Shown in pieces: positions 30,207 to 52,492 of a stretch of DNA of 64,000 nucleotides. This DNA is from Halalkalicoccus paucihalophilus (lineage in GTDB: Archaea; Halobacteriota; Halobacteria; Halobacteriales; Halalkalicoccaceae), in NCBI RefSeq assembly GCF_001593955.1, contig NZ_LTAZ01000004.1, positions 682,001 to 746,000 on the forward strand, written 5' to 3'. The position numbers were made by a program, and so were the translations under genes. The notes below the pieces were generated by a model. That model made no database searches, was not told where the DNA came from, and worked only from the letters and a program-made list of their open reading frames with translations. Every line of letters begins with the position of its first letter. Within the stretch, counting starts at the first letter, position 1.

Positions 30207-30207
30207 C

Positions 30208-32379: not shown

Positions 32380-32390
32380 GTGATTCACCC

Positions 32391-32758: not shown

Positions 32759-33960
32759 CGCAGATCGTCGACGTCAGGCTGCGTCGGATCCTCGATTCGC
32801 GTGGCAACGGTACCGTCGAGGCCGACGTGCTCACCGAGAGCGGCGGGTTCGGCCGCGGGGCCGCCCCGAGCGGCGCGAGTACGGGCGAACACGAGGCGAT
32901 CGAACTCGCCCCCGAGGAAGCGATCGCCGCCGCCCGCGAACGGGCAGTGCCCCGACTCGTCGACGAAGTGTACGCCGGCGATCAGCGGAGCGTCGACGCG
33001 GCGCTTCACGCCGCCGACGGTACCGACGACTTCTCGGAGATCGGCGCGAACTCCGCGGTTGCGATCAGCATGGCCGCCGCCAAAGCCGGCGCGGACATGC
33101 TCGGCGCGCCGCTGTATCAGCATTTAGGGGGGGCGTTCCGGGGGGAGAACTTCCCCATACCGCTCGGAAACGTCGTCGGCGGGGGCGAACACGCCGCCGA
33201 CGCCACGGACATCCAGGAGTTCCTCTCGGCACCGGTCGGCGCGCCGAGCGTGACCGACGCGGTGTTCGCCAACGCCGCGGTCCACGGCGAGATCCACGAT
33301 ATCCTCGCCGAGCGCTCGATTCCAGCAGGAAAGGGCGACGAGGGTGCGTGGGCGCCCTCCGTGGATGACGAGGAAGCCTTCGAGATCGTGGCCGAGGCGA
33401 CCGAGACGGTCAGTGGGGAAGTCGGCTTCGAGATCGGTTTCGGACTCGACGTCGCGGCCGCCGAGATGTACGACGAAGAGGACGAGGAGTACGTCTACAG
33501 CGACCGGACGCGCTCGACGGAGGAGCAGATCGACTACATCGCGGAGCTCGTCTCCGAGTACGATCTGGTCTACGTCGAGGACCCCCTCGACGAGAACGAC
33601 TTCGAGGCGTTTGCCGACCTGACCGAGAAAGTCGGCGAGCAGACACTCATCTGTGGGGACGACCTGTTCGTCACCAACACCGAGCGTCTCTCGCAGGGGA
33701 TCGAGCAGGGATCGGCCAACTCGATCCTGATCAAGCCCAACCAGATCGGCACGCTGACGGACGCCTTCGACGCGATCGAACTCGCGACGCGAAACGGCAT
33801 CGAGCCGGTCGTCTCGCACCGTTCGGGCGAGACCGAGGACACCACGATCGCACACCTCGCCGTAGCGACAGACGCCCCCTTCATCAAGACGGGCGCGGCC
33901 GGCGGCGAGCGAACCGCCAAACTCAACGAACTCATCCGCATCGCGGAGGACGCATTATGA
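32755..33960 (+). CDS. eno: Enolase
   Basis: A 401-residue glycolytic/gluconeogenic enzyme interconverting 2-phosphoglycerate and phosphoenolpyruvate. [16 protein letters not shown] begins it; [19 protein letters not shown] is the mobile loop; the metal ligands lie in [20 protein letters not shown] and [10 protein letters not shown]; the catalytic lysine is in [13 protein letters not shown], and [20 protein letters not shown] follows. Its place between rpoK and rps2 is conserved in archaea. It overlaps both neighbours by four bases. Confidence 0.97.
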
Positions 33961-34766
33961 GCAACGAACCAAACCAAGACGGGCTCGACGCGGCCGAGGA
34001 GGAGATCGACGAGGAACCCGAACCCGAAGCGGGCGGGAACCCCGAGGTCGATCCCGACGAGGACGTCAGAGCTGAGACCGAGGAACCGACCGCCGACGCC
34101 GACACCGAGGAGGCCGAGGCCGAACCAGACACAGAGGAGGACCCAGCCGGACCGTCGCTCGACGAGGACGTCATGCCCGACGACGAGGCAGACCTCCTCA
34201 TTCCGGTCGAGGAGTACCTCGGCGCGGGGGCCCACATCGGGACCCAGCAGAAGACCCAGGACATGGAGCGGTTCATCCACCGCGTGCGCACGGATGGACT
34301 GTACGTGCTGGACATCTCGAAAACCGACGAGCGCATCCGCACCGCTGCGGACTTCCTCTCGAACTACGACCCCGAGCAGGTGCTGGTGACCTCCTCCCGG
34401 CAGTACGGCCGGTTCCCGGCCGAGAAGTTCGCCGAGACGATCGGCGCGCGCGCCCGGACCGGACGGTTCATCCCCGGCACGCTGACCAACCCGAAGTACG
34501 ATGGCTACATCGAACCCGACGTGCTCGTGGTGACCGACCCGATCGGCGACGCGCAGGCCGTGACGGAGGCGATCACGGTCGGTATCCCCGTGATCGCGAT
34601 GTGTGACTCGAACAACTCGACGAGCAACGTCGACCTCGTGATCCCGACGAACAACAAGGGCCGCAAGGCGCTGTCGGTCGTCTACTGGCTACTGGCCAAC
34701 GAGACGCTTGATCGGCGCGGTGCCGATACGGTCTACGCGCTCGAAGACTTCGAGAGCGGGATCTAG
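33957..34766 (+). CDS. rps2: 30S ribosomal protein S2 (uS2)
   Basis: A 269-residue protein. The first 70 residues are an extremely acidic, low-complexity extension ([20 protein letters not shown] and similar) before the S2 core starting [20 protein letters not shown]. The core has RAARTG-like [15 protein letters not shown] and [21 protein letters not shown]. It is the last gene of this operon here and is followed directly by a T-run terminator. Confidence 0.96.
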
Positions 34767-34780: not shown

Positions 34781-35417
34781 ACTGAGAGATCACCCGTCAG
34801 CCGATCGTAACCCGTTTTGCCAGACGAGGGAGACGAAGCGCCCGTGAACCATCCGTAGACGTCTCCGTTTTCCGTGATCTCTGAATCGCTCGAACGAGCC
34901 GTACGGCGGTTCCGGACATGACCGATAGCGAGATTCGGAACGGTCGAAGTTCTGATAGTGATCGGTTCGAATTACTATTGTTTTTCCGATCAGTCCCGTT
35001 GCCCGTTGGGGTTCCGCTAGAACACGCTAGAGAGAGGGGACGAATTCCCATCGACGGCCGGATTTAACGGCTCGTAATTACCCGTCTATCGTCCGAACCG
35101 GATGCGGAGAGGACTTCGACTCTCCGACTCGATGAACGATCCGCTATCGGTGCTGTTAGGGCAATCGGACTGATTAAACGTTCAACGTATCGATTAACCA
35201 CCCAATTACGAAAACATATTTGCCAATTAACTAATAGCCCTTCGCTCATCGTCTTGACCTGTCTGACGGCTAGTCAGCCAGGGGTGGGATATATGAGTCA
35301 GGGCTATATACCGCAGGAAGGGGAACAGACGATCTCACGGACAGAGAGGTGTCTAACACGCAGTTTCGGGGAACGAGCCACCGATTCGATCGGTCGGACA
35401 ACTGCCGGGGGCTAACG
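34781..35417. other. Long non-coding gap at the left edge of the polysaccharide island
   Basis: About 640 bases with no supported gene. Reading frames on the minus strand are basic, serine/arginine-rich and unconvincing. The stretch is AT-richer than the operon on its left. The only assignable signal is the TATA-like GCTATATACC near its right end. It is the junction between conserved rps2 and the glycan genes, so a remnant of an insertion is possible. Confidence 0.5.
35303..35312 (+). promoter_or_regulatory. TATA-like box at island left end
   Basis: GCTATATACC would set transcription start near 35333, giving an 85-base leader for the ATG at 35418 or a short one for the GTG at 35349. Confidence 0.5.
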
Positions 35418-36728
35418 ATGTCGCAGTACACCCCCGAAAAGGAGATCTACAAGACGGAACACTCGAAACCGGCGATCGGTCTGATCGCAACTCGAGAGAA
35501 CGAGGCCGAGCTGACCCGAACGATCCTCCAAGCGACTCGACAGGGCTACGACGTTCTGGTGACCCATGGCGAGGAGACCGAACCGGAAGCGGTCGATCTC
35601 GCACGGATGCTCGACGCACGGATCGTCTATCCGGATCACGCCGATACCGATCGGGAGTCGCTGGTCTCGACGTTGGCGGTCGCCGCACGGACGGCTGGCT
35701 ATCCGGGATTGATCTATCAGTCGTCCGATTTTTCCGCGATCGACTACGCGCAAAGCGAGACGGAGCTCACTGAGGGTACCGGTTTCGCCGTCGAGGCGGT
35801 TCCGACGAGCGCCGTCCGTCAACGGCCCTCGATCGTCATCGGGATCCCCGCGTACAACGAAGCGGGATCGATTGAACACGTCGTCGAGGCGGCCGAGAAA
35901 TACGGCGATCGTGTGCTCGTCGTCGACGACGGGAGCCGTGACGACACCGCGCTTCTGGCCCGCGAGGCAGGTGCGGACGTCATCGAACACGAGTACAACC
36001 GCGGTTACGGAGCGGCGCTCAAAACGCTCTTTCGTGCCGCTGACAGGCAGGACGCGAGACATCTCGTGATCCTCGATGCCGACGATCAGCACGATCCGGC
36101 CGATATTCCGCGACTCGTTGCGGCACAGCGTGAGGCCGACGCGGAGATCGTCATCGGAAGCCGATTCGTCGACGGTGCGGCTGCCGATATTCCCCGATAC
36201 CGGCGACTCGGACTGTTCGTCGTCAACACGCTCACGAACATGAGTATCGGGGCGTTTCACCCGAGTAAACGGATCTCCGACACACAGAGCGGTTTTCGAG
36301 CCTACAACCGGCGTGCGATCGCGGGATTGGCCGACGACGAGACGATCGGAAGTCAGATGAACGCCAGTACTGATATCCTCTATCACGCCCATCAGCGGGG
36401 ATACGGGATCGAGGAGGTCGGAATCAGGGTCCGGTACGACGTCGCGAACGCGAGTAGCCACGACCCGATCTCCCACGGCTACAACCTCGTGAACAACATC
36501 TCCACGACCGTTCAGAACACACATCCGTTGATCAGCCTCGGAACGCCGGGGGTTTTGAGTCTCGTTTTAGGTATCAGTGGTCTCTACTGGCTCGTCTCCG
36601 TCTTCCTCGCGACGGGGTCGTTATCGTTCGTCCTTACGGCCCTCTCCGCGTTGTTCTGCTTCGGTGGTTTCTTCGCCTGTATCGCCGCGGTTATTCTCCA
36701 CTCCTTGAAAGTATCGAAAAGCAGATAA
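35418..36728 (+). CDS. GT2 glycosyltransferase (dolichyl-phosphate mannosyltransferase-like) with extra N-terminal domain and two C-terminal helices
   Basis: A 436-residue protein. Residues about 138-335 are a GT2 domain: VIGIPAYNEAGSIEHVVE, VVDDGSRDDT, a DxD region VILDADDQHDP near 218, and SDTQSGFRAY near 287. Two membrane helices near 375-397 and 404-430 anchor it, as in AglD/DPM1-type enzymes that load sugar onto dolichyl phosphate. Residues about 15-125 (AIGLIATRENEAELTRTILQ; DARIVYPDHADTD; GLIYQSSDF) look like a degenerate second Rossmann/GT half-domain lacking a catalytic DxD. A GTG start at 35349 would add 23 residues. First gene of the island. Confidence 0.85.
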   Translation: MSQYTPEKEIYKTEHSKPAIGLIATRENEAELTRTILQATRQGYDVLVTHGEETEPEAVDLARMLDARIVYPDHADTDRESLVSTLAVAARTAGYPGLIYQSSDFSAIDYAQSETELTEGTGFAVEAVPTSAVRQRPSIVIGIPAYNEAGSIEHVVEAAEKYGDRVLVVDDGSRDDTALLAREAGADVIEHEYNRGYGAALKTLFRAADRQDARHLVILDADDQHDPADIPRLVAAQREADAEIVIGSRFVDGAAADIPRYRRLGLFVVNTLTNMSIGAFHPSKRISDTQSGFRAYNRRAIAGLADDETIGSQMNASTDILYHAHQRGYGIEEVGIRVRYDVANASSHDPISHGYNLVNNISTTVQNTHPLISLGTPGVLSLVLGISGLYWLVSVFLATGSLSFVLTALSALFCFGGFFACIAAVILHSLKVSKSR

Positions 36729-36990
36729 TAGTATCCGTACGACTGCTTCGTTCTTCCCTCTGGACCTGAATAAATCATCCAATACGTTTTTATCGGGATC
36801 ATTAATCGCGTTCTACCGAACCGGTTTCGTGGGAGTCGAGTGCTTTAGGGACCGATAGGATGAATGAACGGCTTTTTCGGCTCCGTTCGACGTGTTTCTC
36901 CCGGCCCGGTCGGGATAGTCACGTTCGAACGCCGGGACAGATGTTACGATGGTGATAATAAAGTACGGTTCGGGCGGTAGTTTCACGCAC

Positions 36991-37872
36991 ATGAGTCGGA
37001 GTACGCGGGACGCGCTAGCTGGTGGGTTCGCGAACGTCATCTCGTTCGACCTCGAACACTGGTACACCGCAACGCTGTTGCGCGACGAGGTGGACGATCC
37101 GATCGATCGGATCGAAACGTCCGTCGAAATCGTCCTCGATGTCCTCGACGAGCACGAGACGGCTGCGACGTTCTTCGTGGTCGGCGACGTGGCCCGCGAG
37201 TATCCGGAACTGATCGAGCGGGTCGCGGACGCCGGCCACGAGATCGCCTCCCACGGTCAGACGCACACCCCGCTGTTCGAACTCACGCCGGAAGCGTTCA
37301 CGGAGGAACTCGACGCGAGCGCCGACGCGATCGAGACGGCGATCGGTCGACGGCCGACGGGGTTTCGTGCGCCCAACTTCTCGGTTACGCCACGAACCCG
37401 CTGGGCGTTCGACGCGCTTCTCGAGACGGGGTATCGGTACGATTCGAGCGTGTTTCCAGTCAAAACGCCGATGTACGGTGTCAACGGTGCACCGGTGTCC
37501 CCCTACTGGGTCGATCGCCGCCGTCCGTTCATCGACGCCTCCCCCAGCGATACCGACGACCTGTTCGAACTCCCGTTGGCAGTGTTCCATCCCCGAGTCC
37601 GGATTCCGACTGCTGGCGGGTTCTACGGTCGGATTCTACCGAGGTGGCTACTCTCGCGCGGGATCTCGAACCTCAACCGACGAGGGATTCCCGCCACCAT
37701 CTACTTTCATCCCTGGGAGTTCAACCCCGAGGTCCGGGTCGATGGCGTGCCCGCACACAAACGGTTCATCAGCTTTCACGGTCTCGATCGGGCACGCGAG
37801 AAACTCGGAGAGCTCTTGGCTGCTCACGAGTTTACGACCTGTAAACGGGTGATGGAGCTCTATGACCACTGA
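36991..37872 (+). CDS. Polysaccharide deacetylase, exosortase-locus (DUF3473) type
   Basis: A 293-residue NodB-fold enzyme. VISFDLEHWYTATLL near residue 15 holds the metal aspartate, IASHGQTHTPLF near 84 the two histidines, and TGFRAPNFSVTPRTRWAFD the next motif. The C-terminal FYGRILPRWLLSRGISNLNR and IPATIYFHPWEFNPEVR, then KRFISFHGLDRAREKLGELL, match the DUF3473 domain of deacetylases in bacterial PEP-CTERM/exosortase exopolysaccharide loci. It removes N-acetyl groups from a surface or lipid-linked glycan. A TATA-like GATAATAAAG at 36952-36961 favours this start over 36949. Its end overlaps the next gene by 11 bases. Confidence 0.88.
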   Translation: MSRSTRDALAGGFANVISFDLEHWYTATLLRDEVDDPIDRIETSVEIVLDVLDEHETAATFFVVGDVAREYPELIERVADAGHEIASHGQTHTPLFELTPEAFTEELDASADAIETAIGRRPTGFRAPNFSVTPRTRWAFDALLETGYRYDSSVFPVKTPMYGVNGAPVSPYWVDRRRPFIDASPSDTDDLFELPLAVFHPRVRIPTAGGFYGRILPRWLLSRGISNLNRRGIPATIYFHPWEFNPEVRVDGVPAHKRFISFHGLDRAREKLGELLAAHEFTTCKRVMELYDH

Positions 37873-38884
37873 GTACGCGCTCCGAAAGGCCGACGACACC
37901 GAGTGGGAACGGTTCGTCGAGAACCGGGCGAACGCGACGGTGTTTCATACTCTCGGCTGGAAACGGGCGGTCGAATCGGCGTTCGGCTACACGCCGCGAT
38001 ATCGACTGGTTACCGACCGGGATCGAACCGTCGCCGCCGTTCCCGGGTTCGAGGTCCCCGCCGTGTTCGGGACGACCGTGACGACCCCGTTCGGGGAGTA
38101 CGGGTTCCCGCTGCTCGACGACGAGAGCGAACCGATACTCGCCGCGTTGGCCGATGCGATCCCACCGTTCGAGACGCTGATCCTCAAGGAATCCGACTGG
38201 ACCGAAACGACCGGCTACAGCGCGGCTGGCTTCGGCGGCGTCGAGACGGGGATTTGCCTCCAACTCGGTGTCGATCGTCCATTCGAGGCAGTCTGGGACG
38301 ACTCGTTTGCGAGCGGTGCTCGCCGGAACGTCCGCAAGGCTCGCGAATCCGGCGTGACCGTCAGCGAAGCCGACTCCATCGATCCGTACTACCCGCTCTA
38401 TCTCCGGACGATGCGTCGGCTGGGTAGCCCGCCGTTTCCCGCCGCGTTCTTCGCGGCCCTCATGGAGAAACTCACCGAGAGCGTAACGCTCCTGTGTGCG
38501 AACTACGACGGAGAGGTGATCGCCGGCTTGCTCGCGTTCGAATACGACGACCGCTGTCTGATCTGGAGCAACGCCTCGACGCCCGAGGTGTGGGACTACA
38601 AACCCAACGACCTGTTGTACGCCGAGATTATCCGTCGGGCCTGTGAGGGCGATGCGTCGGTCGTCGACTTCGGCCGAAACGAGCGTGGCTCGAACGTTCA
38701 CGAGTTCAAGACACAGTTCGGCGGCGCGGAGACACAGTTGACGAGTCTCGTTTACCCGCCCGGACGGACCGGGGTGGCGTCGATCGACGAGTACAAACGA
38801 ATCGCTCCGGTGGCACGCGCGTTCGCGCCGCTGGTCACCAACCGGACGCTCGGTCCGTGGCTCAAGTGGTGGATACACGAATGA
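37862..38884 (+). CDS. FemAB-like (peptidoglycan-bridge type) GNAT-fold transferase
   Basis: A 340-residue protein with two tandem GNAT folds. RNVRKARESGVTVSEAD near residue 158, LYLRTMRRLGSPPFPAAFFA near 179, GEVIAGLLAFEYDDRCLIWS, and NDLLYAEIIRRACEGDASVV followed by DFGRNERGSNVHEFKTQFGG match the FemAB-related proteins of bacterial exosortase/EPS loci. True FemABX enzymes use aminoacyl-tRNA to add amino acids to cell-wall precursors; whether this one does is unproven. Its start lies within the deacetylase stop region and its own stop overlaps the next gene, so the three are translationally coupled. A paralogue lies at 51461-52492. Confidence 0.85.
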   Translation: MTTEYALRKADDTEWERFVENRANATVFHTLGWKRAVESAFGYTPRYRLVTDRDRTVAAVPGFEVPAVFGTTVTTPFGEYGFPLLDDESEPILAALADAIPPFETLILKESDWTETTGYSAAGFGGVETGICLQLGVDRPFEAVWDDSFASGARRNVRKARESGVTVSEADSIDPYYPLYLRTMRRLGSPPFPAAFFAALMEKLTESVTLLCANYDGEVIAGLLAFEYDDRCLIWSNASTPEVWDYKPNDLLYAEIIRRACEGDASVVDFGRNERGSNVHEFKTQFGGAETQLTSLVYPPGRTGVASIDEYKRIAPVARAFAPLVTNRTLGPWLKWWIHE

Positions 38885-39528
38885 GAACGAACACCCTGCT
38901 CGCGGTCGTAACCGGTGCATTCGTTACGGCCGCCTCGAACCTCTACTGGTGGCACAGAACACGAACGATCCGCGAGGGACTCGCGGTAAGCAGTGCTCGC
39001 GACGAGGCGATCGACGAGCGACAGACCGAGGCGAGGCGAACGCTCGAAACGGCTGCACAGCAGGCGGGCGTGGCGCCGGATGAACTCCCGGTGGCGATCG
39101 AGTCCCTTCGGGAGCGAATCGCGGCCGCCGAAAAGGAACGGGACACCGCGAAAAGCGAAGTGGGATCGCTCACCAGTCGATGGGCCGAACGCTGGTGGCA
39201 GGCCCGAACGGCCGAGATGGACGGTCCGCGGGCGCTCGCGATCACGATCGAGGGCGACGCGGACGAGGCTCGCGCGCTCGCAAAATACGCTCCCGAGTAC
39301 AACGAGGGTGTGACGATCGTCACGACCGAGCCCGATCACACCTTCGTCGTGACCGTCGGCGATGCGATGGCCGACCTCGACGCTACCGACTTGGCCGCTG
39401 AACTGACGGCCGTCGCGGGCGGCGGGGCGGGCGGATCGTCGAGGCGGGCGACCGGTGGGGGCGCGTCGGAGGAACTCGCGGCGGCGGCGTCCGGTCTCGC
39501 CGACCGGCTGTCGGGTGAGATCGACTAA
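38881..39528 (+). CDS. Membrane-anchored coiled-coil protein with alanyl-tRNA synthetase C-terminal-like domain
   Basis: A 215-residue protein. One hydrophobic segment near residues 4-22 (NTLLAVVTGAFVTAASNLYW) is a signal anchor; residues about 40-95 are charged and coiled-coil-like (ESLRERIAAAEKERDTAKSE). Residues about 112-215 (ALAITIEGDADEARALAKYA; GVTIVTTEPDHTFVVTVGDA; ELTAVAGGGAGGSSRRATGG) resemble the DHHA1/C-Ala domain of AlaRS, including the GGGxGG...GGG loop, which in AlaRS binds the tRNA elbow. It overlaps the FemAB gene by four bases and ends four bases into the convergent GT4 gene. Confidence 0.7.
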   Translation: MRTNTLLAVVTGAFVTAASNLYWWHRTRTIREGLAVSSARDEAIDERQTEARRTLETAAQQAGVAPDELPVAIESLRERIAAAEKERDTAKSEVGSLTSRWAERWWQARTAEMDGPRALAITIEGDADEARALAKYAPEYNEGVTIVTTEPDHTFVVTVGDAMADLDATDLAAELTAVAGGGAGGSSRRATGGGASEELAAAASGLADRLSGEID

Positions 39529-40679
39529 CGGGCGTCGAGGATCGACTCGTAGAGGTCGAGGTGGCGTTTCCCGACGGCCTCCCACGAGAACCGCTTTGCC
39601 TGTCTCTCGCTGTTCTTCGCGAACTCCGCGCGCAGATCGTCGTTCTCGAGGACGGCGACGATGGCGTTCGCCAGACGGGCCGCGTTTTTCGGGGGAACGA
39701 CCAGCCCGCTTCCCGATCGCTCGACGAGCCTCGGGAAGTCCCCGATCGAGGAGGTGACGACCGGCGTGGCGAAAGAGAAGGCGGTCGCGAGCGCGCCGCT
39801 GTGGCCCTTCATCCCGCCCTCGGAGTGATAGGGCATCACCGCGAGGGCGGCCCGCGAGAAGAGTTCGCCGACGCGATCGTTCGGAACGAACTCGTTGTGG
39901 ACCTCGAAGTGCTCGCCGTGGGTCGCGATGATCCTCGCCGTCCGCGCCGAGAGGCTTCCCGAGCCGGCGACGACGAGTTCGATGTCCGGGAGTTCCTCGC
40001 TCGCGAGGACGACCGCCTCCGCGAGGGTGTCGAGCCCCTTCGAGGGGATGACGTTGCCGAAAAACAGCAGCGTGTGTCGTTCCTCGGGTCGTTCCTCGTA
40101 ATCGTACTCCGAGAAGAAGTCGTAGGTTCCATGGGGGATGACCGCCAGCTCCGACTCCTCGAATGACTGCTCGAGGAGGGCTTCGTGCTGGCTTCGCGTG
40201 TGAACGACCGTCTTCGCGAGGTCGACTTCCGGGACGAGCGCCCCCGCGAGGCGTTCCGCGAGAACCGGCGGCCGGGTGATCGGAAACCGGGTCGCCGAAA
40301 CCTCGTGGCGCGTGACGACTAGCGGGTAGCGATCGAGATCGTACCGCCCGGCGAAGAACTTCACGTACGGGAAGAAGCCGGTTGGATCGTGAACGATATC
40401 GGGATCGATGTCGTGAACCCGCTCGAGCGAGCGATACGACCACATCGCCCGGAGGTTCTCACGGACGTTGAACTCGTAGTCGTATAGGTCGGGAAGGGAG
40501 AGCGAGATCGGTTCGAACGCGTCGATGACGCGAACGTCCTCGGAGAAGACGTCGTCGGCGGTGGTCTCGGTGGGTTTGAGCACCGTCACGTCGGCGTGTC
40601 GTGCCGTCGCGTTCGCGAGTTCGGCCGCGTAGTGCGGGAACCCCCCCGTGTTCTGCGTGACGAGATACACCAGTTCCAT
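39525..40679 (-). CDS. GT4 glycosyltransferase, copy A
   Basis: A 384-residue GT-B enzyme. The C-terminal donor domain carries LLFFGNVIPSKGLDTLAEAV, LAVMPYHSEGGMKGHSGALA (the EGGxKGHSG nucleotide-sugar region) and VTSSIGDFPRLVERSGSGLV. The N-terminal YLVTQNTGGFPHYAAELANA acceptor domain and the whole sequence are closely similar to the GT4 at 50300-51460, including 65 identical bases in the opposite orientation. A TATA-like GTTATATTAT (40701-40710, minus strand) lies 27 bases from the start, so it is leaderless. Sugar specificity is unknown. Confidence 0.9.
   Translation of the reverse strand: MELVYLVTQNTGGFPHYAAELANATARHADVTVLKPTETTADDVFSEDVRVIDAFEPISLSLPDLYDYEFNVRENLRAMWSYRSLERVHDIDPDIVHDPTGFFPYVKFFAGRYDLDRYPLVVTRHEVSATRFPITRPPVLAERLAGALVPEVDLAKTVVHTRSQHEALLEQSFEESELAVIPHGTYDFFSEYDYEERPEERHTLLFFGNVIPSKGLDTLAEAVVLASEELPDIELVVAGSGSLSARTARIIATHGEHFEVHNEFVPNDRVGELFSRAALAVMPYHSEGGMKGHSGALATAFSFATPVVTSSIGDFPRLVERSGSGLVVPPKNAARLANAIVAVLENDDLRAEFAKNSERQAKRFSWEAVGKRHLDLYESILDAR
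40534..40598 (-). repeat. Inverted repeat, copy A (65 bases, perfect)
   Basis: These 65 bases, read on the minus strand, are identical to 50381-50445 on the plus strand. Both copies encode the HADVTVLKPTETTADDVFSE block of the two GT4 enzymes. Flanking coding sequence has diverged well beyond this, including at silent sites, so the block stands out as recently homogenised. Confidence 0.9.
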
Positions 40680-40721: not shown

Positions 40722-40804
40722 ATGTGTAATTGGATAGGTCGATCACCGCCCCGGAGTGCAGAGGCGGTCGCGGATGTCGTTGGGCCGACAGGGTTACGTC
40801 GGTG

Positions 40805-41608
40805 ATGGCCGTGGGCATCGATATGATCGGCGGAGAGGGAGGGCGGCGGCTCGTGGATCGAGCGTTTCGGGCGACGCTCACGGGACTGTATCGGCCCGAC
40901 GGCGTACGGTGTCCGATCGTCCTCTACCACGGCGTGACGGAGTCGGGCGGACCGTGGGGGGTCACCCCGGCGTGCTTTCGCCGACAGATCGAGTGGCTCT
41001 CCCGGACGTTCGACCTTTTCACTCTACACGGGGCGGTGAGTCGGTGGCGGGACGGCACGCTCCCGTCGAACCCGGCGGTAGTGACCTTCGACGACGGGCT
41101 TCGTTCGACGGTCGAGAACGCGCTTCCGGTTCTCGAGGAGTACGGCGTGCCGGCGACTCACTACCTCGTTCCCGGCCTCTTCGGGGAGCCCTTCGAGGGG
41201 GCACGAGTCATGGATCGCGGGGACGTTTCGGCCCTCGTAGCACGCGGCCACGAGATCGGTGCACACACGATGACGCATCCCGACCTGACCGCCGTCGATC
41301 GTCGGACGGCCCGCCGGGAGATCGCGGAGTCGCGGGACGCGATCGCGGCGATCACCGGCGAGAAGCCGACGAGTTTCGCCTATCCCTACGGTGCGTTCGA
41401 CGACACTGTTACCGATCTAGTTCGAGAGGCGGGCTACGAAACCGCGACGACGGTCATCGGATCGGACATCGTCGACTTCACCGCACCGTTCACCCTCTCG
41501 CGGATCACGATCATGCGTCAGCACGATCTATCAGCGGTTAAATCATTGATTAACGGGGATCGGCGATGGCAACGGATGATCGACGAAGTCACCGCTCGAC
41601 CGCTCTAG
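40805..41608 (+). CDS. Polysaccharide deacetylase, NodB type
   Basis: A 267-residue carbohydrate esterase family 4 protein. PAVVTFDDGLRSTVENALPV near residue 91 has the metal/catalytic DD, IGAHTMTHPDLTA near 152 the HxxxH histidines, and SFAYPYGAFDDTVTDLVREA near 195 the tyrosine-proline motif. It lacks a signal peptide and the DUF3473 tail of the deacetylase at 36991, so it may act in the cytoplasm on lipid-linked sugar. The ATG at 40805 was chosen; 40823 and an upstream TTG at 40730 are alternatives. Confidence 0.85.
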   Translation: MAVGIDMIGGEGGRRLVDRAFRATLTGLYRPDGVRCPIVLYHGVTESGGPWGVTPACFRRQIEWLSRTFDLFTLHGAVSRWRDGTLPSNPAVVTFDDGLRSTVENALPVLEEYGVPATHYLVPGLFGEPFEGARVMDRGDVSALVARGHEIGAHTMTHPDLTAVDRRTARREIAESRDAIAAITGEKPTSFAYPYGAFDDTVTDLVREAGYETATTVIGSDIVDFTAPFTLSRITIMRQHDLSAVKSLINGDRRWQRMIDEVTARPL

Positions 41609-41722: not shown

Positions 41723-42814
41723 ATGAGCAGTATCGAGACGGTGAGCGCTACACCATCCGATCCGATGGATCTGATCGAGGCGTTCTACGAACACCGAGGG
41801 GGCTCGTGCAGGGGGGAGACGTATCTGGTTCTCGACACGGGGAACTACATCACCTACGCGTTTCGACCGGAATCCCGAGCGATCGAGTGGCTCGTAGATC
41901 GCCTCGCCGGCGACGACTGGAAGAGCCGTCTTGGAGTGCTCGCGATCGAGATCGTCGCCTCGATCCCGGAACTCCTCCCGTTCGTACCGATACTTCGTTC
42001 GGAGACCCTCTCCGTCCCAGTCGAGGATCCGTTCGACGTCGCGGTCATCGGCGACCGGATTACGATGCTGGGGTTGGATCGCGGTCGAGTGTACACGATC
42101 GCCACCGACGATCAGGCGAAACTCCAGCGTGAGATCGAACGGCGAAAGCAACTTCCCGACTCGATCAACACGGCACCGATCGTCGAGGACGACCCCGAGT
42201 ACCCGTACGTCATCAAGGAGTACCTCGACGGACGGGAACTCGCGGATCCGATAACGGAGTGGGATCTACTGCTCGACGCCCTCGAACAGCTCACTGCCCT
42301 CTACGAGACCGACCGCCACCGGGTCGAGACCGCCACCGCGGTTCGGACACTCGAAGCGGAGTTGACGGCCGGAACCGAAACGACCGAACCCGTCCGGAGC
42401 GGGCTGGCGCTCCTCGACGAACTCGAGTTACCGCCGGTCCTCCATCGTGGGTCGATCCACGGCGACCTCCACGCCGGGAACGTCTTCATCAACGACGCGG
42501 TGTACCTCCTCGATTGGGAGGACATCCGGGAGGACTACGTGATCGACGATTTCTTCAGACCGTTCGTCATTCACCAGTACAACACGCCGCTCCATCGGCT
42601 GTTCGTCGAGATGATGGACGGTCGGGGAACCGGGGGTCGAATCATGGCCGAGTACGCGCAAACGATCGGCCCGTCGGCGTACGGCGACTCGAACACCTAC
42701 TCCGGGCTCCCGCTGTTCTACCTCCTCTCGCTGACCGCGGACGTCGGTACGCATGGCTCGCTTCGTGGGCCATGTCGCGAACTCCTCTCCGATGTCGTCT
42801 CCGCGTACCGCTGA
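41723..42814 (+). CDS. Phosphotransferase-fold (APH/choline kinase-like) protein
   Basis: A 363-residue protein. RGSIHGDLHAGNVFINDAVY near residue 243 is the catalytic HGDxHxGN loop and YLLDWEDIREDYVIDDFFRP near 258 the metal-binding D of the DFG-like motif, both as in aminoglycoside/choline kinases. The N-lobe is less clear; VIKEYLDGRELADP near 168 is a hinge region. In a glycan locus it may phosphorylate a sugar, choline or ethanolamine for surface decoration. Antibiotic resistance is unlikely. The start is supported by the TATA box. Confidence 0.8.
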   Translation: MSSIETVSATPSDPMDLIEAFYEHRGGSCRGETYLVLDTGNYITYAFRPESRAIEWLVDRLAGDDWKSRLGVLAIEIVASIPELLPFVPILRSETLSVPVEDPFDVAVIGDRITMLGLDRGRVYTIATDDQAKLQREIERRKQLPDSINTAPIVEDDPEYPYVIKEYLDGRELADPITEWDLLLDALEQLTALYETDRHRVETATAVRTLEAELTAGTETTEPVRSGLALLDELELPPVLHRGSIHGDLHAGNVFINDAVYLLDWEDIREDYVIDDFFRPFVIHQYNTPLHRLFVEMMDGRGTGGRIMAEYAQTIGPSAYGDSNTYSGLPLFYLLSLTADVGTHGSLRGPCRELLSDVVSAYR

Positions 42815-42953: not shown

Positions 42954-44408
42954 ATGGATATCTCCCGCTCGGCGTTGAAGGTCTTTCTCGCGAAGGGGGG
43001 CAACGCGGTCGTGTTCTTCGCCGGCATCACGGTGTTCGCCCGCGAGTTGGGACCGACACAGATCGGGATCTTCTTCCTGTTTCAGACGGTGCTCGGGCTG
43101 ACGACCATCGTCGCGGACTTCGGGGTTCGCGGCGCGCTCGAAAAGCGCCTGAGCGAGGGCCAACAGCCGGGGACGATGCTGGCGACCGCGATCGCGGTGA
43201 AACTCGTGACCGTCGCCGGGGCGGCCGGGCTGATTCTGCTGGTCCGGCCGTACCTCAACGGGTACCTCGGCGGCGAGTTCGCGATCTACCTCGTGATCGC
43301 GCTGGTGATCCAGGAGTTCGCGGACCTGTTCATCCAGGCGGTCCGGGGCGAGCTCCGCGTCGGAGAGACGGCCATCATCGAGTTCGCCCGCGAGGCGGTC
43401 TGGGTCACGAGCGGGCTGGCGTTCGTGTGGGCCGGCTACGGGGTCGAGGGCCTGATCTACGGGCTCATCCTCGGATCGACGACGGCGGCCTGCTGGGCGT
43501 TCGTCAAACTCGAGACGCGCGTCGGCCGGCCGGCCGAACTCTCGGCGTGGTCGCTGTACGACTACGCGAAGTACTACTTCCTCTCGTCGGTCAGCGGGCA
43601 GGTCTACCAGTGGATGGACGTCGCGATCATCGGGCTGTTTCTGACCTACGCGGACGTCGGGGCCTACGAGGTCGCCTGGGAGGTGACGCTGTTGGTGTTG
43701 CTGGTCAGCAAGACCCTCTCGATCACGCTGTTCCCCCAGATGAGCCAGTGGAGTTCCGAGGCGGCCGTCGATCGGATCGAGGCGGTCGTCCCGGAGGCAA
43801 TCGGGGTCGCGCTGTTCCTCTCGATCCCCGCGTTCGTCGGGGTGTTCGTGCTTAACTACGAGGTCCTAGCGACCGTCTTCGGTTCGGAGTACACCATTGC
43901 GGCGGGCGTCCTCGTGGTGTTGATGATCGAGAAGGTCTTCCAGTCGGTCAACGACGTACTGGGTAGCACGCTTCGTGGCATCGACCGGGTCGATCTCGTT
44001 GCACGGGCGGTCGTGGTGACGATCGCGATCAACCTCGTGCTCAACGTCGCGCTCGTGCTCACCGTCGGACTGCTGGGTGCGGCGATCGCGACCACGACCG
44101 CAGCGATCGTTCAGACGCTCCTCAACGGCCGCTATCTCTCCCAGAACATCACCCTGCGTGTGCCGTACCGACTCGTCGCGTGGTCGACGGTCAGTGCGGC
44201 GGCGATGGGGCTGGTCGTCTGGGGGGTCCGTACGGCCCTTCCCTTCGAGGGGATCGCCTTGCTCGCGATCTGTGTCGGTGTCGGGGTCGCGAGCTATCTG
44301 TCGTTCTCGGCCGTCATCCCTTCGCTCCGACGACAGGTTGTCGTGCCCGGCGTACGGGTACTCGTATCGTTTCTCCGGCCCCCGAAATCGCTCTCGGACT
44401 CCTCATGA
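42954..44408 (+). CDS. Polysaccharide biosynthesis flippase (Wzx/AglR-like, MVF family)
   Basis: A 484-residue integral membrane protein with roughly 13-14 hydrophobic helices. The N-terminal SALKVFLAKGGNAVVFFAGI and RELGPTQIGIFFLFQTVLGL, then the middle YDYAKYYFLSSVSGQVYQWM motif, are typical of oligosaccharide flippases that turn lipid-linked glycans across the membrane. It is the likely exporter of the product of the island's glycosyltransferases. Moderately acidic loops fit the haloarchaeal cytoplasm. Confidence 0.9.
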   Translation: MDISRSALKVFLAKGGNAVVFFAGITVFARELGPTQIGIFFLFQTVLGLTTIVADFGVRGALEKRLSEGQQPGTMLATAIAVKLVTVAGAAGLILLVRPYLNGYLGGEFAIYLVIALVIQEFADLFIQAVRGELRVGETAIIEFAREAVWVTSGLAFVWAGYGVEGLIYGLILGSTTAACWAFVKLETRVGRPAELSAWSLYDYAKYYFLSSVSGQVYQWMDVAIIGLFLTYADVGAYEVAWEVTLLVLLVSKTLSITLFPQMSQWSSEAAVDRIEAVVPEAIGVALFLSIPAFVGVFVLNYEVLATVFGSEYTIAAGVLVVLMIEKVFQSVNDVLGSTLRGIDRVDLVARAVVVTIAINLVLNVALVLTVGLLGAAIATTTAAIVQTLLNGRYLSQNITLRVPYRLVAWSTVSAAAMGLVVWGVRTALPFEGIALLAICVGVGVASYLSFSAVIPSLRRQVVVPGVRVLVSFLRPPKSLSDSS

Positions 44409-44530
44409 GCGACACCTCTCGAGTAGTCTACAGATGGCTACCGAAGTCTCCGATCCTCGAGACACCGATCGAAGGGGTTACTGGCGCGAGGGCCGCCTGT
44501 CCACCCGCGGTGACGTGATGTTAATTCCGT

Positions 44531-44564: not shown

Positions 44565-46796
44565 ATGACCTCCGGGGGGGGATCGTTTCGGGGTGCACGC
44601 TCGATGGCGGATCCGGAAGCGTTCGGTGGCGGGTCCGGGACGATCCACGAGATCCGACTGTCCTGTCGGGCCGTCGCCGTGTCGATGGGGAGCCTTCTCG
44701 TCGCGTTCTGGGCCGTCGTCGGAGCCGCCTCGTTCGGTATCGAGCTTTCACTGGTACAGAACGCTCTCGGAGTCGTACTACTGACGCTCGCTCCGGGATT
44801 TCTCCTCCTCCTGTTCGTCGATCACGGCATCGACGACGTCGGCGAAGTACTCCTCTACGTCGTCGGGTTCAGTCTGGTGTTTCTCGCCGCCACGAGCATG
44901 GTTGTCAGCCTCCTGTACCCGTTGTTCGGTATCGACGATCCCCTCTCGTTTCTCCCGCTTTCGCTCACCGTCAGCGCGGTCTGTCTCGTGTTAACGGTCC
45001 TGTCGTATTGGCGGGATCGAAGTGTCGTCCTCCGGGTTCCGTCGCTCGCTCCACGGGATGGCAAGATCGCCGCGTTCCTGCTCTGCCTGCCGGTGCTCGC
45101 AGCGATAGCCGCTCACCGGATGAACGTCGCGGGGAGCAACTGGTTGATGTACGTGTTTCTCCTGCTTGTGGCCGTCGTCGTACTCGTTTCGATCAGCGCC
45201 CTCCCTCCGAAGCTCTACCCGCTCGCCGTGTTCGCCGTCGCGGCGGGGATCTTCCTCCACCGCAACCTGATCACCAACGCGGTCGTCGGATCGGACATCC
45301 AGGTGAACTACTTCTTCGTCCAATTGTTGTTGGAAAACGGCGTCTGGGAGGCGGGGCTGGGTGATGACGTCTACTCCTCGATTCCCGTCGTCGGGGCCGT
45401 TCCGGCCGTCTACTCGGTCGTGACCGGTATCGATCTGGCGCTCGTGTTCAAACTGCTCTTCTCGCTGCTGTTTGCCCTCGTCCCGGTCGGGGTCTACTAC
45501 GCGTTCAAGGACACCTTCGGAGCGAACGCGGCCCTCGTTGGGGCGTACTTCTTCGTGTTATATTTCCGGGCGTTCAACGGGACGCCGGGAAAGACGCGCA
45601 TCGCCCAACTGTTCGTGGTGTTGCTCCTTCTGGTGTTGATCACCGATCGGGACCGACTTCCCGGAAAGGAGTGGATCGGGTTCGTCTTCGGGCTGGGGCT
45701 GGTCTTCTCACACTACACCACGACCTACATCGTCGTCATCTCGCTCGCGGTCGCGTACGTGCTCGGTCGGATCTACGAGGCGTATTCGGGCGAGGACCTC
45801 GGATGGGGGATCGTCGGGACCTACGCGGTCGCGTTGGGCGGGACGGCGATCGGGTGGTACGCGCTTACGACCCCGGGGATGATCGAGAGCGTCGCGACCG
45901 TTCTTGCGGGGATCCCGACCGAACTCTACGCTGCCCTCTCGGGCGAGGCGTCCCACCGGTCGGGCGCGAGCGCGGTAGAGGAGGGATCCGGTATCATGTA
46001 TCTGCTTACCCTGCTCGTTCACATGGTTCTCATGGCGTTGGCCGGGATCGGCGTCGTCTCACAGGCGTTCGTCGGGCTGTTCTCGGCCGACCGGCGACAG
46101 CGACCCGAAGCGATCAAACTGGCGACCCTCGCAGTACCCATGTTGATGTTTCTCGGCGCGTCCTACTTCGTCACGGGCAATCTGGGCGCCGACCGGATGT
46201 ATCAGATCGTTCTCGTCGTGTTGGCCCCGTTCATGCCGGTCGGCGCGCTCGCGCTCGTGGGGCTCGCCGGCGCGATCCGCGACATCGACATACCAGTTTG
46301 GCGGCCGATTCTGGGGGTGTTGGCGCTCCTCCTGTTGCTCAATACGGGCGTCGCCTACAACGCGGTCGGCGCACCCGTCACCTCCGACATCGCCCTCGAT
46401 AAGGACACCCACTCGCTCGCGTACACCGACGCGGAGATCGACGGCGGCGAGTGGATCGACGACACCAGCACCGATGCCCCGGTCGTCTACACCGACAGCT
46501 ACACCGGCGAGATGTTCCGAGGGATCGTTCCGGAGTCGTACTCCGATGCGAGCGTGATACAGATCAAGGTCGACTGGAAGCCCGGAATCGAGTTCTCTGA
46601 GGGATACGTCTACGTCCGTGCACGCGCCGTCGTCGACGCCGCGGCCTACGACGGGGAGCCACCGCAGTACTACCTCACGGAATCGGAACGAGCGGCGATC
46701 GAGCGCTCGACGAACAAGGTCTACACGAGCGGCGAGGCCGACGTGTTCCGCTACGACGGCACCGAGACACGGGAGTTCGGACGCGACGGGGCCTGA
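44565..46796 (+). CDS. Large multi-spanning membrane protein (DUF2206-like), probable glycan polymerase or GT-C-type transferase
   Basis: A 743-residue protein. After a short polar N-terminus there are some 16-18 hydrophobic helices to about residue 600, then a C-terminal extracytoplasmic domain of about 140 residues (GGEWIDDTSTDAPVVYTDSY; YYLTESERAAIERSTNKVY). The pattern resembles archaeal DUF2206 proteins and GT-C enzymes, which use lipid-phosphate sugars outside the membrane; NLITNAVVGSDIQVNYFFVQ may be the first acidic loop. The DPM1-like GT2 and the flippase nearby would supply donor and acceptor. The role as polymerase or transferase is inference. Confidence 0.75.
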   Translation: MTSGGGSFRGARSMADPEAFGGGSGTIHEIRLSCRAVAVSMGSLLVAFWAVVGAASFGIELSLVQNALGVVLLTLAPGFLLLLFVDHGIDDVGEVLLYVVGFSLVFLAATSMVVSLLYPLFGIDDPLSFLPLSLTVSAVCLVLTVLSYWRDRSVVLRVPSLAPRDGKIAAFLLCLPVLAAIAAHRMNVAGSNWLMYVFLLLVAVVVLVSISALPPKLYPLAVFAVAAGIFLHRNLITNAVVGSDIQVNYFFVQLLLENGVWEAGLGDDVYSSIPVVGAVPAVYSVVTGIDLALVFKLLFSLLFALVPVGVYYAFKDTFGANAALVGAYFFVLYFRAFNGTPGKTRIAQLFVVLLLLVLITDRDRLPGKEWIGFVFGLGLVFSHYTTTYIVVISLAVAYVLGRIYEAYSGEDLGWGIVGTYAVALGGTAIGWYALTTPGMIESVATVLAGIPTELYAALSGEASHRSGASAVEEGSGIMYLLTLLVHMVLMALAGIGVVSQAFVGLFSADRRQRPEAIKLATLAVPMLMFLGASYFVTGNLGADRMYQIVLVVLAPFMPVGALALVGLAGAIRDIDIPVWRPILGVLALLLLLNTGVAYNAVGAPVTSDIALDKDTHSLAYTDAEIDGGEWIDDTSTDAPVVYTDSYTGEMFRGIVPESYSDASVIQIKVDWKPGIEFSEGYVYVRARAVVDAAAYDGEPPQYYLTESERAAIERSTNKVYTSGEADVFRYDGTETREFGRDGA

Positions 46797-51460: not shown

Positions 51461-52492
51461 TCAGAGGCTGATGTTCCGGCGGATCGGCGGGCCGATCAGT
51501 TCGGTCACCTTCAACGGCAGGCGCTCCCAAACGTCCTTGAGGCGATCGTACTTCTCGTCGTCTGGGTCCGGGAGCGTCGTCGAGGCATCGGGGAAGGAGT
51601 GATAGTCGTCGAACCACACCTTCTCACCGCCCCAACTCTTCTTGAAGCTATAGACGCCGGTTCCCTCCCGGGTCCGTCCCAACGTGTACGTCGAGCAGCC
51701 CGACTCGCAGGCGTCCTCGATCCCGTTCCACAGAAGGAAGCTCCCGCCCTGCAGGTCACGATACTCGTAGTCGGTGATCCCGCCCCAGTCGAAACACCGA
51801 TCGCCGTAGAGAAATCGGATCTGGCCGTTGATCAGGCGGTCGTCCTTCAGCGCCAGTTCGACGGTCATGTGATCGCCGAGGTCGTCCCACAACTGCGTGA
51901 AAAACGAAAACGAGTGTGGCGGACTCCCGAAGTCACGCATGTTTCGCAGGTACAGGTCGTAGTACCGCCGCAGGTCCGCTTTCGAGGTCGCTCTCTCGTA
52001 CTCGACGCCCTCCTTTCGGGCCTTGCGGACGTGCGTACGGTTCGAGCCGTCGAGCGAGTCCCATACCGCCTCCGAACCGCCCGACAGGGAGATGTCGAAC
52101 GTAACGAAGCGGTTTTGCTTCTCGAATCCCGGCGGGTCGCCGAGGTCCCGTCCCCGGAGGCTGACGAAATCCACGCCGAGTTCGTCGGCGAGGTCGCGGA
52201 CGGGTTCGAGCAAGAGGTCGGTCGCCGCCTCGGGGGCGTCCTCTCTGCTCACGACCGATCCGTACGCGCTGTAAGGCATCGAGACCAGTTGGTCGCCGAA
52301 CAGACGACTCCTCATGTAGACGAGAGGTACGCAGGCGAGCAGGTCCCCGTCTTCTTCGACGGCGAAGCGATAGGTCCGATGGCCACACGCCTCACACAGC
52401 GCCCCCCACGCCCAGCCGTCGAACACCGGTCCTCCGTTGTCCTCCACGAACCCCTCCCATCGATCCGCATCTGTCACCCTGATGACTCGCAT
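51461..52492 (-). CDS. FemAB-like GNAT-fold transferase, copy B
   Basis: A 343-residue protein. NRTHVRKARKEGVEYERATS near residue 150, LYLRNMRDFGSPPHSFSFFT near 176, NGQIRFLYGDRCFDWGG near 222 and YTLGRTREGTGVYSFKKSWG near 275 are the same motifs as in the FemAB-like gene at 37862, with clear divergence. It is therefore a second paralogue in the island. TATTTATAGG on the minus strand (52514-52524) lies 27 bases from the start. It faces GT4 copy B with no gap between their stop codons. Confidence 0.85.
   Translation of the reverse strand: MRVIRVTDADRWEGFVEDNGGPVFDGWAWGALCEACGHRTYRFAVEEDGDLLACVPLVYMRSRLFGDQLVSMPYSAYGSVVSREDAPEAATDLLLEPVRDLADELGVDFVSLRGRDLGDPPGFEKQNRFVTFDISLSGGSEAVWDSLDGSNRTHVRKARKEGVEYERATSKADLRRYYDLYLRNMRDFGSPPHSFSFFTQLWDDLGDHMTVELALKDDRLINGQIRFLYGDRCFDWGGITDYEYRDLQGGSFLLWNGIEDACESGCSTYTLGRTREGTGVYSFKKSWGGEKVWFDDYHSFPDASTTLPDPDDEKYDRLKDVWERLPLKVTELIGPPIRRNISL

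Follow-up and report, generated by a model that had tools for sequence, protein, structure and literature searches.

FemABX transferases are known to take amino acids from aminoacyl-tRNA and act on bacterial peptidoglycan. K305 is given as the reactive residue of Weissella viridescens FemX (FemXWv) in PMC12945691. In alanine--tRNA ligase (AlaRS), the GG-motif C-Ala subdomain sits against the D- and T-loop of the tRNA and binds its elbow, according to PMC7033119. Titles and the beginnings of abstracts in the open-licence PMC literature yielded no paper on a FemAB paired with a C-Ala/DHHA1 protein, and no paper was found in that literature on FemAB in haloarchaea, on archaeal FemAB using aminoacyl-tRNA for exopolysaccharide, or on FemAB with PEP-CTERM/exosortase. 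We know of no earlier case of tRNA-dependent glycan aminoacylation in archaea.

We analysed a 64,000-nt window, the whole stretch of DNA to which our coordinates refer, from Halalkalicoccus paucihalophilus (GCF_001593955.1, NZ_LTAZ01000004.1, positions 682,001-746,000 of the forward strand). The adjacency there of a FemAB-type enzyme, FemAB1, and a C-Ala-like protein, mC-Ala, suggests an undescribed route attaching amino acids to surface sugars. We think it fairly probable that the two form a two-part tRNA-dependent aminoacyl transferase, which at the inner membrane face would aminoacylate amino sugars of a surface glycan.

The FemAB1 and mC-Ala genes

A sequence-only reading had described a FemAB-like gene and an overlapping next gene at 37862-39528. 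Both open reading frames are present (Table 1), and the FemAB-like identity of the first held up: its top Pfam family is PF13480, FemX-type structures come first among its PDB matches, and the lysine is kept. Only GNAT/FemAB-type families were found by hmmscan in the 340 residues of FemAB1, with no multi-pass flippase domain fused. Its TIGR03019 score of 134.4 bits falls under the NCBI equivalog cut-off of 260.35, so it is related to that family and not filed as a member. The AlphaFold model of FemAB1 (mean pLDDT 67.7) is weak across much of the N-terminal half. Foldseek comparison with the PDB placed FemX, FemA, Sba18 or Sbb17 at all of ranks 1-11 (best E 1.7e-13); with both domains included, these matches have TM 0.40-0.47 and a large rmsd of 14-17, and identity to FemX is ~15%. 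The FemAB1 profile matched 9wqw best (E 6e-11) and FemXWv at E 7.7e-8 to 2e-7. FemXWv K305 aligned on K283 with the FK pair in register, the HMMER alignment stopping at FemXWv 308, and this position is lysine in 63 of 65 aligned FemABs and a gap in the other two. As modelled, FemAB1 has a double-GNAT FemX-type fold, and by alignment it appears to keep the lysine equivalent to K305.

Table 1. Features of the locus and their positions in the window.
Feature	Position	Strand	Evidence
GT2 glycosyltransferase (AglJ/PpgS-like, polyprenyl-phosphate sugar synthase type)	35349..36728	+	Pfam GT2 E 1.5e-25
Polysaccharide deacetylase, TIGR03006-like	36949..37872, probable start 36991	+	PF01522 E 7.2e-24; PF11959 E 1.5e-26
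FemAB-like transferase FemAB1, 340 aa	37862..38884	+	PF13480 E 1.3e-22; TIGR03019 E 4.6e-39
Predicted catalytic Lys283 of FemAB1	38708-38710	+	Profile alignment to FemXWv K305
mC-Ala (stand-alone C-Ala protein, predicted membrane anchor), 215 aa	38881..39528	+	AlaRS C-Ala homology
Predicted N-terminal transmembrane segment, mC-Ala residues 5-23	38893..38949	+	Kyte-Doolittle 1.32
Helical (coiled-coil) subdomain of C-Ala, mC-Ala residues 42-110	39004..39210	+	AlaRS alignment; model helices
Globular C-Ala/DHHA1-type domain, mC-Ala residues 117-215	39229..39525	+	Model secondary structure; Foldseek; 3g98
Glycine-rich motif GGGAGG-4-A-x-GGG, mC-Ala residues 180-194	39418..39462	+	Invariant columns, 18 sequences
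GT4 glycosyltransferase, opposite-strand neighbour	39525..40679	-	PF13692 E 9.4e-22
Second polysaccharide deacetylase	40730..41608	+	PF01522 E 2e-32
Polysaccharide flippase (Wzx/MOP type)	42954..44408	+	PF13440 E 5.3e-21
DUF2206 membrane protein of glycan cluster	44565..46796	+	PF09971 E 5.1e-30
FemAB2, paralogue from another FemAB clade	51461..52492	-	PF13480 E 2.7e-19

The mC-Ala frame is open from 38857, and the ATG at 38881, which overlaps the FemAB1 frame, is the start agreeing with homologues. The protein matched the NCBIfam archaeal alanine--tRNA ligase TIGR03683 (E 2.7e-9) at profile positions 733-888 of 902, and phmmer against the PDB found the A. fulgidus AlaRS structures 2zvf (E 9.5e-6) and 3wqy (E 2.4e-5); the family profile reached 2zvf at E 8.3e-16. 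With 215 residues and a match restricted to the C-terminal part, mC-Ala lacks the aminoacylation and editing domains, in agreement with the earlier statement that no AlaRS catalytic site is present. TIGR03683, 2zvf and 3wqy bear out the C-Ala/DHHA1 resemblance claimed at the same time. Against Pfam DHHA1 (PF02272, gathering score 25.9) the protein reached only 17.5 bits; other family members scored 18.9 (L108 and L111), 25.4 (L109) and 31.0 (L083). In the AlphaFold model (mean pLDDT 84.1) a long helical stretch, where a coiled coil had been proposed, precedes a globular domain, and Foldseek ranks 1-16 are all AlaRS or AlaRS C-Ala (best E 2.4e-7), including rank 8, titled only ISPT-SYA, which we take for AlaRS. 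Model, Foldseek and profile all place a helical plus globular C-Ala fold in mC-Ala; an unrelated fold, which would have spoken against the earlier reading, was not seen, and the GG loop of AlaRS C-Ala is there in the model. After its predicted anchor, mC-Ala is, judged from sequence and model, a complete archaeal AlaRS C-Ala region. RefSeq labels one such pair 'DHHA1 domain-containing protein' beside 'GNAT family N-acetyltransferase'.

Compared against 29 AlaRS/AlaX-type domains, the glycine-rich motif has the spacing of GGGGGGPPDFAQGGG in haloarchaeal AlaRS, but mC-Ala has lost the Gln that AlaRS carries in AQGGG. Residues G181, G184, G185, A190, G192 and G193 are invariant in the 18 mC-Ala sequences. 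By analogy with AlaRS, mC-Ala probably holds tRNA. Counting against our proposal, besides the lost Gln, is the acidity of its soluble part (net charge -11 to -32), although acidic proteins are usual in haloarchaea. In a tree with AlaRS/AlaX-type domains, the mC-Ala sequences fall on one side of a branch with support 99/97, representing a C-Ala domain that exists apart from any synthetase, as its own family. An AlaX or a split AlaRS is ruled out by this separate clade and by the missing editing and catalytic domains.

The membrane anchor of the sequence-only reading was assessed by Kyte-Doolittle hydropathy with our own script, not a dedicated predictor. All 18 members have 19 hydrophobic residues in a row near the N-terminus, with mean values of 0.73 to 2.13; four of them lie below 1.0 and are weakly hydrophobic. 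In the 15 residues that follow, K/R outnumber D/E in 17 of the 18 (L024 being the exception), with 3 K/R against 1 D/E in the mC-Ala of the window; the C-terminal part is taken as cytoplasmic.

Distribution and co-divergence of the pair

The survey covered 391 haloarchaeal genomes. FemAB1 belongs to one clade of the FemAB tree (support 100/99), found in 18 of these genomes, among them two of the six from the window's own genus; full-length mC-Ala members likewise occur in 18. The mC-Ala gene directly follows FemAB1 in 17 of the 18 FemAB1 genomes, and a contig end cuts it in the eighteenth; the proposed check of co-occurrence thus finds the pair together in all 17 evaluable genomes. In 15 of 17 pairs (the window's own and 14 of 16 others) the mC-Ala start codon overlaps the FemAB1 stop codon. 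FemABs of other clades have an mC-Ala neighbour at one of 43 places (the exception, G166), and the 42 places without it indicate that mC-Ala is no general FemAB requirement. Within the window, FemAB2 (31% identical to FemAB1) served as an internal comparison, and no mC-Ala lies beside it in positions 44001-60000.

Distances within FemAB1 and mC-Ala are correlated across 16 genomes (Mantel r 0.947, none of 5000 permutations as high), in a comparison made with no species-tree control. Relative to the G134 copy, dN/dS is 0.31 for FemAB1 and 0.33 for mC-Ala, and both genes look, on sequence comparison, to be under purifying selection. The latter value, together with the 18 of 391 genomes that encode mC-Ala at full length, rules out a spurious open reading frame. 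We also ran the mC-Ala profile over 392 genomes from across the phylum (E 1e-6): among the matches listed outside Halobacteria none begins before profile position 47, so none of them carries the anchor, and they lie mostly in frames of ~900 aa, with a few of 441-491 aa. By tblastn, one of 72,556 plasmid records, from Halocatena salina, holds an mC-Ala copy. Halococcus thailandensis has a counterpart of mC-Ala. A dedicated tRNA within the cassette was ruled out by an ARAGORN scan of 25 loci, which found no tRNA gene adjoining the pair; three loci have one tRNA gene each, elsewhere.

Neighbouring genes, acceptor and alternative explanations

The GT2 gene is the first of the usual cassette, and of the 17 other FemAB1 genomes 9 have matching upstream order. 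In NCBIfam it matches AglJ at E 1.4e-31 and, likewise under the family cut-off, PpgS at E 1.7e-31; an ATG start is available at 35421. The deacetylase that follows matched TIGR03006 at E 1.8e-63 (214 bits against a cut-off of 276), and inspection by eye revealed no signal peptide or membrane segment. Of the 18 FemAB1 genomes, 13 have a deacetylase as the gene immediately upstream of FemAB, and 15 have a deacetylase or DegT sugar aminotransferase no farther than 1.5 kb away, as does G166; by BLAST, G165, G039 and G305 have neither within 3.5 kb. Such a neighbour is not peculiar to the FemAB1 clade, as deacetylases occur within 1.5 kb at 15, and within 3.5 kb at 17, of 42 places with other FemABs. 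Flippase homologues are present in 9 of 20 neighbourhoods searched.

The deacetylase upstream of FemAB1 is a likely candidate supplier of the free amine, and the most likely acceptor is an amino sugar in a surface glycan that is still lipid-linked. Sequence, models and the conserved pairing support the earlier reading of tRNA-dependent glycan aminoacylation, to which the amino sugar is a likely addition. In the mechanism we propose, one N-terminal helix would anchor mC-Ala with its C-Ala part on the cytoplasmic side, where the glycine-rich loop would grip the elbow of (aminoacyl-)tRNA as AlaRS C-Ala does, largely independently of tRNA sequence. K283 of FemAB1, the FemX-type lysine, would act as the amino acid leaves the tRNA 3' end to form an amide bond with a free amino group, exposed by the neighbouring deacetylase or, at other loci, installed by a DegT-type sugar aminotransferase; the flippase would export the aminoacylated lipid-linked glycan last. 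We infer how mC-Ala sits in the membrane, that it binds tRNA, that aminoacyl-tRNA is used, and which acceptor and amino acid are involved.

The position of the strongest conservation bears on whether mC-Ala could instead be a membrane scaffold or dimerisation partner, its tRNA binding lost and its fold kept for protein contact, while FemAB1 finds aminoacyl-tRNA alone. The 2zvf title names archaeal C-Ala a dimerisation domain, other FemABs occur without mC-Ala, and the helical part carries a family-specific R-x-R-W-A-D-x-W-W-like stretch that might be a docking site. However, the family is most conserved in the glycine-rich loop, where six of the eight invariant columns fall, and not in the helices; we regard a scaffold as unlikely. 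Co-carriage of the two genes on a mobile surface-glycan island, with no joint mechanism, would suit their patchy presence (18 of 391 genomes, two of six in the genus) and the plasmid copy; it is hardly credible, as the surrounding genes vary between loci yet the pair remains adjacent, mostly overlapping and co-diverging.

Two further explanations concern the chemistry. Aminoacylation could be tRNA-dependent with a membrane lipid or protein as acceptor, MprF-like or N-end-rule-like, and the predicted membrane-bound partner would fit. MprF-type proteins are among the PDB matches of the FemAB1 model, at ranks 19, 22 and 26, but their E of 7.3e-6 is far behind the 1.7e-13 of FemX, and glycan enzymes surround the pair among the neighbouring genes that were scanned, so that we allow this acceptor a slim chance. 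FemAB1 might also be an acyl-CoA-dependent GNAT acting on sugars, with mC-Ala binding another nucleotide or nucleic acid like other DHHA1-type domains. PF13480 is indeed Acetyltransf_6, and RecJ-type proteins predominate at ranks 21-46 for the mC-Ala model, but mC-Ala is closer to AlaRS (E 2.4e-7) than to RecJ (E 2.7e-4), FemAB1 finds aminoacyl-tRNA-dependent enzymes as its best matches in both structure and sequence, and every aligned row without a gap there has the lysine; we find this distinctly improbable.

Within the two-part transferase that we prefer, a narrower version is possible, though we lean against it: FemAB1, mC-Ala and the deacetylase may make N-aminoacyl-glucosamine in haloarchaeal envelopes, by cytoplasmic GlcNAc deacetylation and glycylation from membrane-held Gly-tRNA. 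A 1979 chemical study reportedly found N-glycyl-glucosamine in the Halococcus morrhuae wall, and we know of no account of its biosynthesis. For H. salifodinae, a table in PMC4187196 gives wall glycine lower by a factor of about 14. By analogy this compound, with a bond of the predicted kind, is a candidate product, and the pair offers a two-gene target for that bond. If the narrower version is true, the Halococcus N-glycyl-glucosamine would be explained, and this would be the first archaeal tRNA-dependent glycan aminoacylation known to us, with a dedicated tRNA-tethering subunit in the membrane.

Comparison with known systems

The XrtA/PEP-CTERM FemAB (TIGR03019) and deacetylase (TIGR03006) are the nearest named families to FemAB1 and its deacetylase, both of which miss the equivalog cut-offs (134/260 and 214/276); we know of no functional test of TIGR03019. 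The best sequence-profile matches in the PDB, Sba18/Sbb17 (9wqw, 9wqx, 9wqy), are aminoacyl-tRNA-dependent peptide synthases of bacterial antibiotic biosynthesis, for which we know of no C-Ala partner. By their PDB titles, these entries are complexes with streptothrisamine. The aminoacyl-lipid synthases MprF and LysX share membrane-sited tRNA-dependent aminoacyl transfer with the proposal for FemAB1 and mC-Ala, whereas FemAB1 has no flippase domain and is paired with a bare C-Ala domain instead of a synthetase.

FemX and FemAB1 have in common a FemX-like fold and an equivalently placed lysine, and amide-forming aminoacyl-tRNA transfer is predicted for FemAB1, which in contrast is archaeal, with no peptidoglycan to act on. 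No membrane tRNA-binding partner of FemX is known to us. Archaeal AlaRS C-Ala (2zvf, 3wqy) shares its helical and globular parts, GG motif and fold with mC-Ala, which differs in standing alone in its own clade, with a predicted anchor and without the AQGGG Gln. If our proposal is true, the charged tRNAs of translation also build the archaeal cell surface, as they do bacterial peptidoglycan bridges, except that here the tRNA would be bound by a second subunit, held in the membrane and descended from the AlaRS C-terminal domain.

A transferase gene and its overlapping partner

The host genome is, by its relatives, haloarchaeal (3.98 Mb in 23 contigs, with the window at C4:682001-746000), and its surface-glycan cluster follows a stretch in which genes for ribosomal proteins and enolase can be made out by eye. 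Within this cluster, the sequence-only reading described a FemAB-like gene (here assigned to the FemAB1 clade) overlapped by a gene for a small protein with a predicted membrane anchor (mC-Ala). That description holds, the ATG of the second gene overlapping the stop of the first by 4 bases. A tRNA-Leu (cag) gene borders the cluster; one is likewise found in genome G134, ~5 kb past its GT2 gene.

Features of the window and of related loci
Record	Positions	Strand	Feature
Window	28780-34766		Ribosomal proteins, RNA polymerase subunits, enolase (read by eye), flanking the glycan cluster
Window	31073-31158		tRNA-Leu (cag), within the preceding stretch
Window	37862-38884	+	FemAB1, 340 aa
Window	38881-39528	+	mC-Ala, 215 aa
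Window	41723-42814	+	Phosphotransferase-fold protein (APH, PF01636 E 1.4e-7), inside the glycan cluster
Window	50297-51460		GT4 gene adjoining the next gene
Window	51461-52492	-	Second FemAB-type gene (another FemAB clade), same glycan cluster, no mC-Ala neighbour
L081 (G113)	8741-9915		FemAB1 gene split over the frames 8741-9568 and 9547-9915, which overlap
L081 (G113)	7245-11571		Low third-position GC
L083	8217-13903		Low third-position GC
L156 (Halocatena salina)	9653-11908		FkbM methyltransferase and ATP-grasp protein directly after mC-Ala
L156 (Halocatena salina)	4682-5677		Extra gene annotated GNAT

The small protein as a C-Ala domain with a predicted membrane anchor

Residues 38-198 of the window mC-Ala align to positions 733-888 of TIGR03683 (archaeal alanyl-tRNA synthetase; E 2.7e-9), so the match covers the whole C-Ala region, beyond DHHA1 alone. 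A single-sequence PDB search returned the C-Ala domain of A. fulgidus AlaRS (2zvf, E 9.5e-6; 3wqy, E 2.4e-5), and the family profile improved the AlaRS C-Ala match to E 8.3e-16. The AlphaFold model, built from the window protein and eight named haloarchaeal homologues, had a mean pLDDT of 84.1; its PDB matches at ranks 1-16 were AlaRS or AlaRS C-Ala entries (counting rank 8, titled only ISPT-SYA, as AlaRS), with RecJ-type proteins from rank 21, at modest TM-scores (about 0.5) and several large rmsd values (8-9). For Pfam DHHA1 the window protein scored 17.5, below the cut-off of 25.9, and its relative at L083 scored 31.0, above it. The glycine-rich loop, GGGAGG-4-A-x-GGG, has the same spacing as GGGGGG-PPDF-AQGGG of haloarchaeal AlaRS and contains 6 of the 8 invariant columns of the family. 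The Gln of AQGGG, present in haloarchaeal AlaRS, is lost in mC-Ala. The proposed AlaRS C-Ala fold with its glycine-rich loop is supported by TIGR03683, the PDB profile search and the model.

These proteins form a separate family. When 391 haloarchaeal genomes were searched with the single protein, 376 gave some C-Ala match; among the matches listed, most lay in frames of ~950 aa (AlaRS) or ~400-580 aa (taken as AlaX-type), and 18 loci (L007-L024) encoded stand-alone C-Ala proteins. Exactly the same 18 genomes were recovered by profile search at 216-300 bits, and the top AlaRS score with this profile in a phylum-wide search was 75.5. In a tree of 47 domains, which leaves out one AlaRS-type locus whose domain the motif search missed (L090) and has flagged long branches, a single branch (99/97) separated the 18 mC-Ala proteins from the 26 AlaRS and three AlaX-type rows. 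All 18 carry an N-terminal hydrophobic stretch, judged as a membrane segment from Kyte-Doolittle hydropathy alone (means 0.73 to 2.13, four below 1.0). K/R outnumber D/E in the 15 residues that follow in 17 of 18 (L024 has 3 of each), and by the positive-inside rule the C-Ala part would lie in the cytoplasm.

Conservation of the pair

FemAB proteins were found in 58 of the 391 haloarchaeal genomes at E 1e-20, and the close FemAB1 clade (E 1.3e-51 or better) in 18. mC-Ala is the next gene downstream in 17 of these 18. In the remaining genome, G339 (taken as the named locus L115), the contig stops ~110 bases past FemAB; those bases, read directly, encode the mC-Ala N-terminus (tblastn match to query residues 1-36). 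Among 43 further FemAB places listed, an mC-Ala gene occurred only in G166, head to head with a FemAB2-type gene (FemAB2 being another FemAB clade); none was seen at the other 42 within about 4 kb on each side, or less at contig ends such as L116 and L134. The FemAB/C-Ala observation of the sequence-only reading is real, standing after both the fold and the co-occurrence tests.

With the G303 fragments omitted, all 17 FemAB1 rows fall into a single clade (100/99). The end of FemAB1 and the start of mC-Ala share 4 or 8 bases in 14 of 16 loci (15 of 17 with the window); the others have gaps of 2 (L076, where an alternative ATG six bases earlier would give an overlap) and 129 bases (L080). The two proteins diverge in step: over 16 genomes their pairwise distances have a correlation of r 0.947 (0 of 5000 permutations as high, kinship ignored). 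In both protein trees some sister pairs, among them G165/G039 and G376/G113, join genomes with different family labels; the G376/G113 join is flagged as long-branch in the mC-Ala domain tree. The G113 FemAB1 gene is split, by either a frameshift or a sequencing error, and its mC-Ala frame is open. At L083 and L081, third-position GC of ~0.27-0.46, against at least 0.59 in most neighbours, and a sulfatase-family gene close to the pair suggest recent transfer.

A scan of named genomes gave nine mC-Ala loci, all adjoining FemAB: Halocatena marina, H. pleomorpha, Halococcus thailandensis, Actinarchaeum halophilum, strains YIM A00010 and YIM A00013, one Salinarchaeum MAG and two Halobacteriales MAGs. 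Six were taken as loci already in the 391-genome set. A Halocatena salina plasmid record also has the pair (taken as the G360 locus).

Chemistry, acceptor and known systems

FemAB1 of the window matched PF13480 (E 1.3e-22), with PF04339 and PF02388 near their cut-offs, and the XrtA-associated FemAB family TIGR03019 at 134 of 260 bits. A single-sequence PDB search gave no match up to E 1; the FemAB family profile A4 found aminoacyl-tRNA-dependent peptide synthases (9wqw, 6e-11; 9wqy, 8.4e-11), lipid II:glycine glycyltransferase (6snr, 1.7e-8) and FemXWv (7.7e-8 to 2e-7). In the FemXWv profile alignment K305 falls on K283 of the window protein, a position holding K in 63 of 65 aligned FemABs and gaps in the other two (four of 69 extracted rows, shorter than 250 aa, were left out). 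According to PMC12945691, the reactive lysine of FemXWv is K305, and K329 is essential in DhpH-C. The FemAB model (mean pLDDT 67.7; below 50 at residues 65-81, 100-127 and 294-340) matched FemX, FemA, Sba18 and Sbb17 at ranks 1-11, then acyl-CoA GNATs and MprF.

The gene directly upstream of FemAB1 codes for a TIGR03006-like deacetylase in 13 of the 18 genomes (the window, G134, G360, G337, G235, G249, G255, G276, G183, G209, G336, G339 and G303); in the window and the next nine named, and in named loci L110, L112 and L114, a GT2 gene precedes it in the same direction. G113 instead has a deacetylase just downstream of mC-Ala, and a DegT/DnrJ sugar aminotransferase adjoins the pair in G376, as in G166. 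By BLAST, 15 of 18 FemAB1 genomes (19 loci, as G303 lies in two pieces) have one or other enzyme within 1.5 kb; G165, G039 and G305 have neither within 3.5 kb, G165 having a class I/II aminotransferase ~2 kb away. In the same test, 15 of the 42 remaining FemAB places had a deacetylase within 1.5 kb (17 within 3.5 kb), so such a neighbour also goes with FemAB loci outside FemAB1. The window deacetylase has no hydrophobic leader by eye and contains SHGQTH and RAP stretches that fit the usual motifs; it is therefore probably cytoplasmic. Because an amine-exposing or -installing enzyme adjoins an amide-forming one, we infer that the acceptor is an amino sugar.

A product of the expected kind may already be known from the wall of Halococcus morrhuae. 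For this wall PMC4187196, citing Steber and Schleifer 1979, reports three carbohydrate domains partly joined via N-glycyl-glucosaminyl bridges, and wall glycine of 100 nmol/mg in H. morrhuae vs 7 in H. salifodinae; this bridge is a candidate product. In the genus holding H. thailandensis, FemAB1 occurs in 4 of 10 genomes, all four with mC-Ala, and two of the other six encode a FemAB-like protein that is only distantly related (E about 1e-11). Such distant proteins are encoded at L161, L162 and L163, with YK rather than FK in the lysine region of the first two. If H. morrhuae lacks FemAB1, its N-glycyl-glucosamine would need another enzyme.

With moderate confidence, we read FemAB1 and mC-Ala as a tRNA-dependent transferase, tethered to the membrane, that would aminoacylate surface glycan. 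Neither the stand-alone membrane C-Ala partner nor the archaeal glycan setting was found in searches of open-licence PMC papers. FemABX chemistry is already known; what would be new is that partner and that setting.
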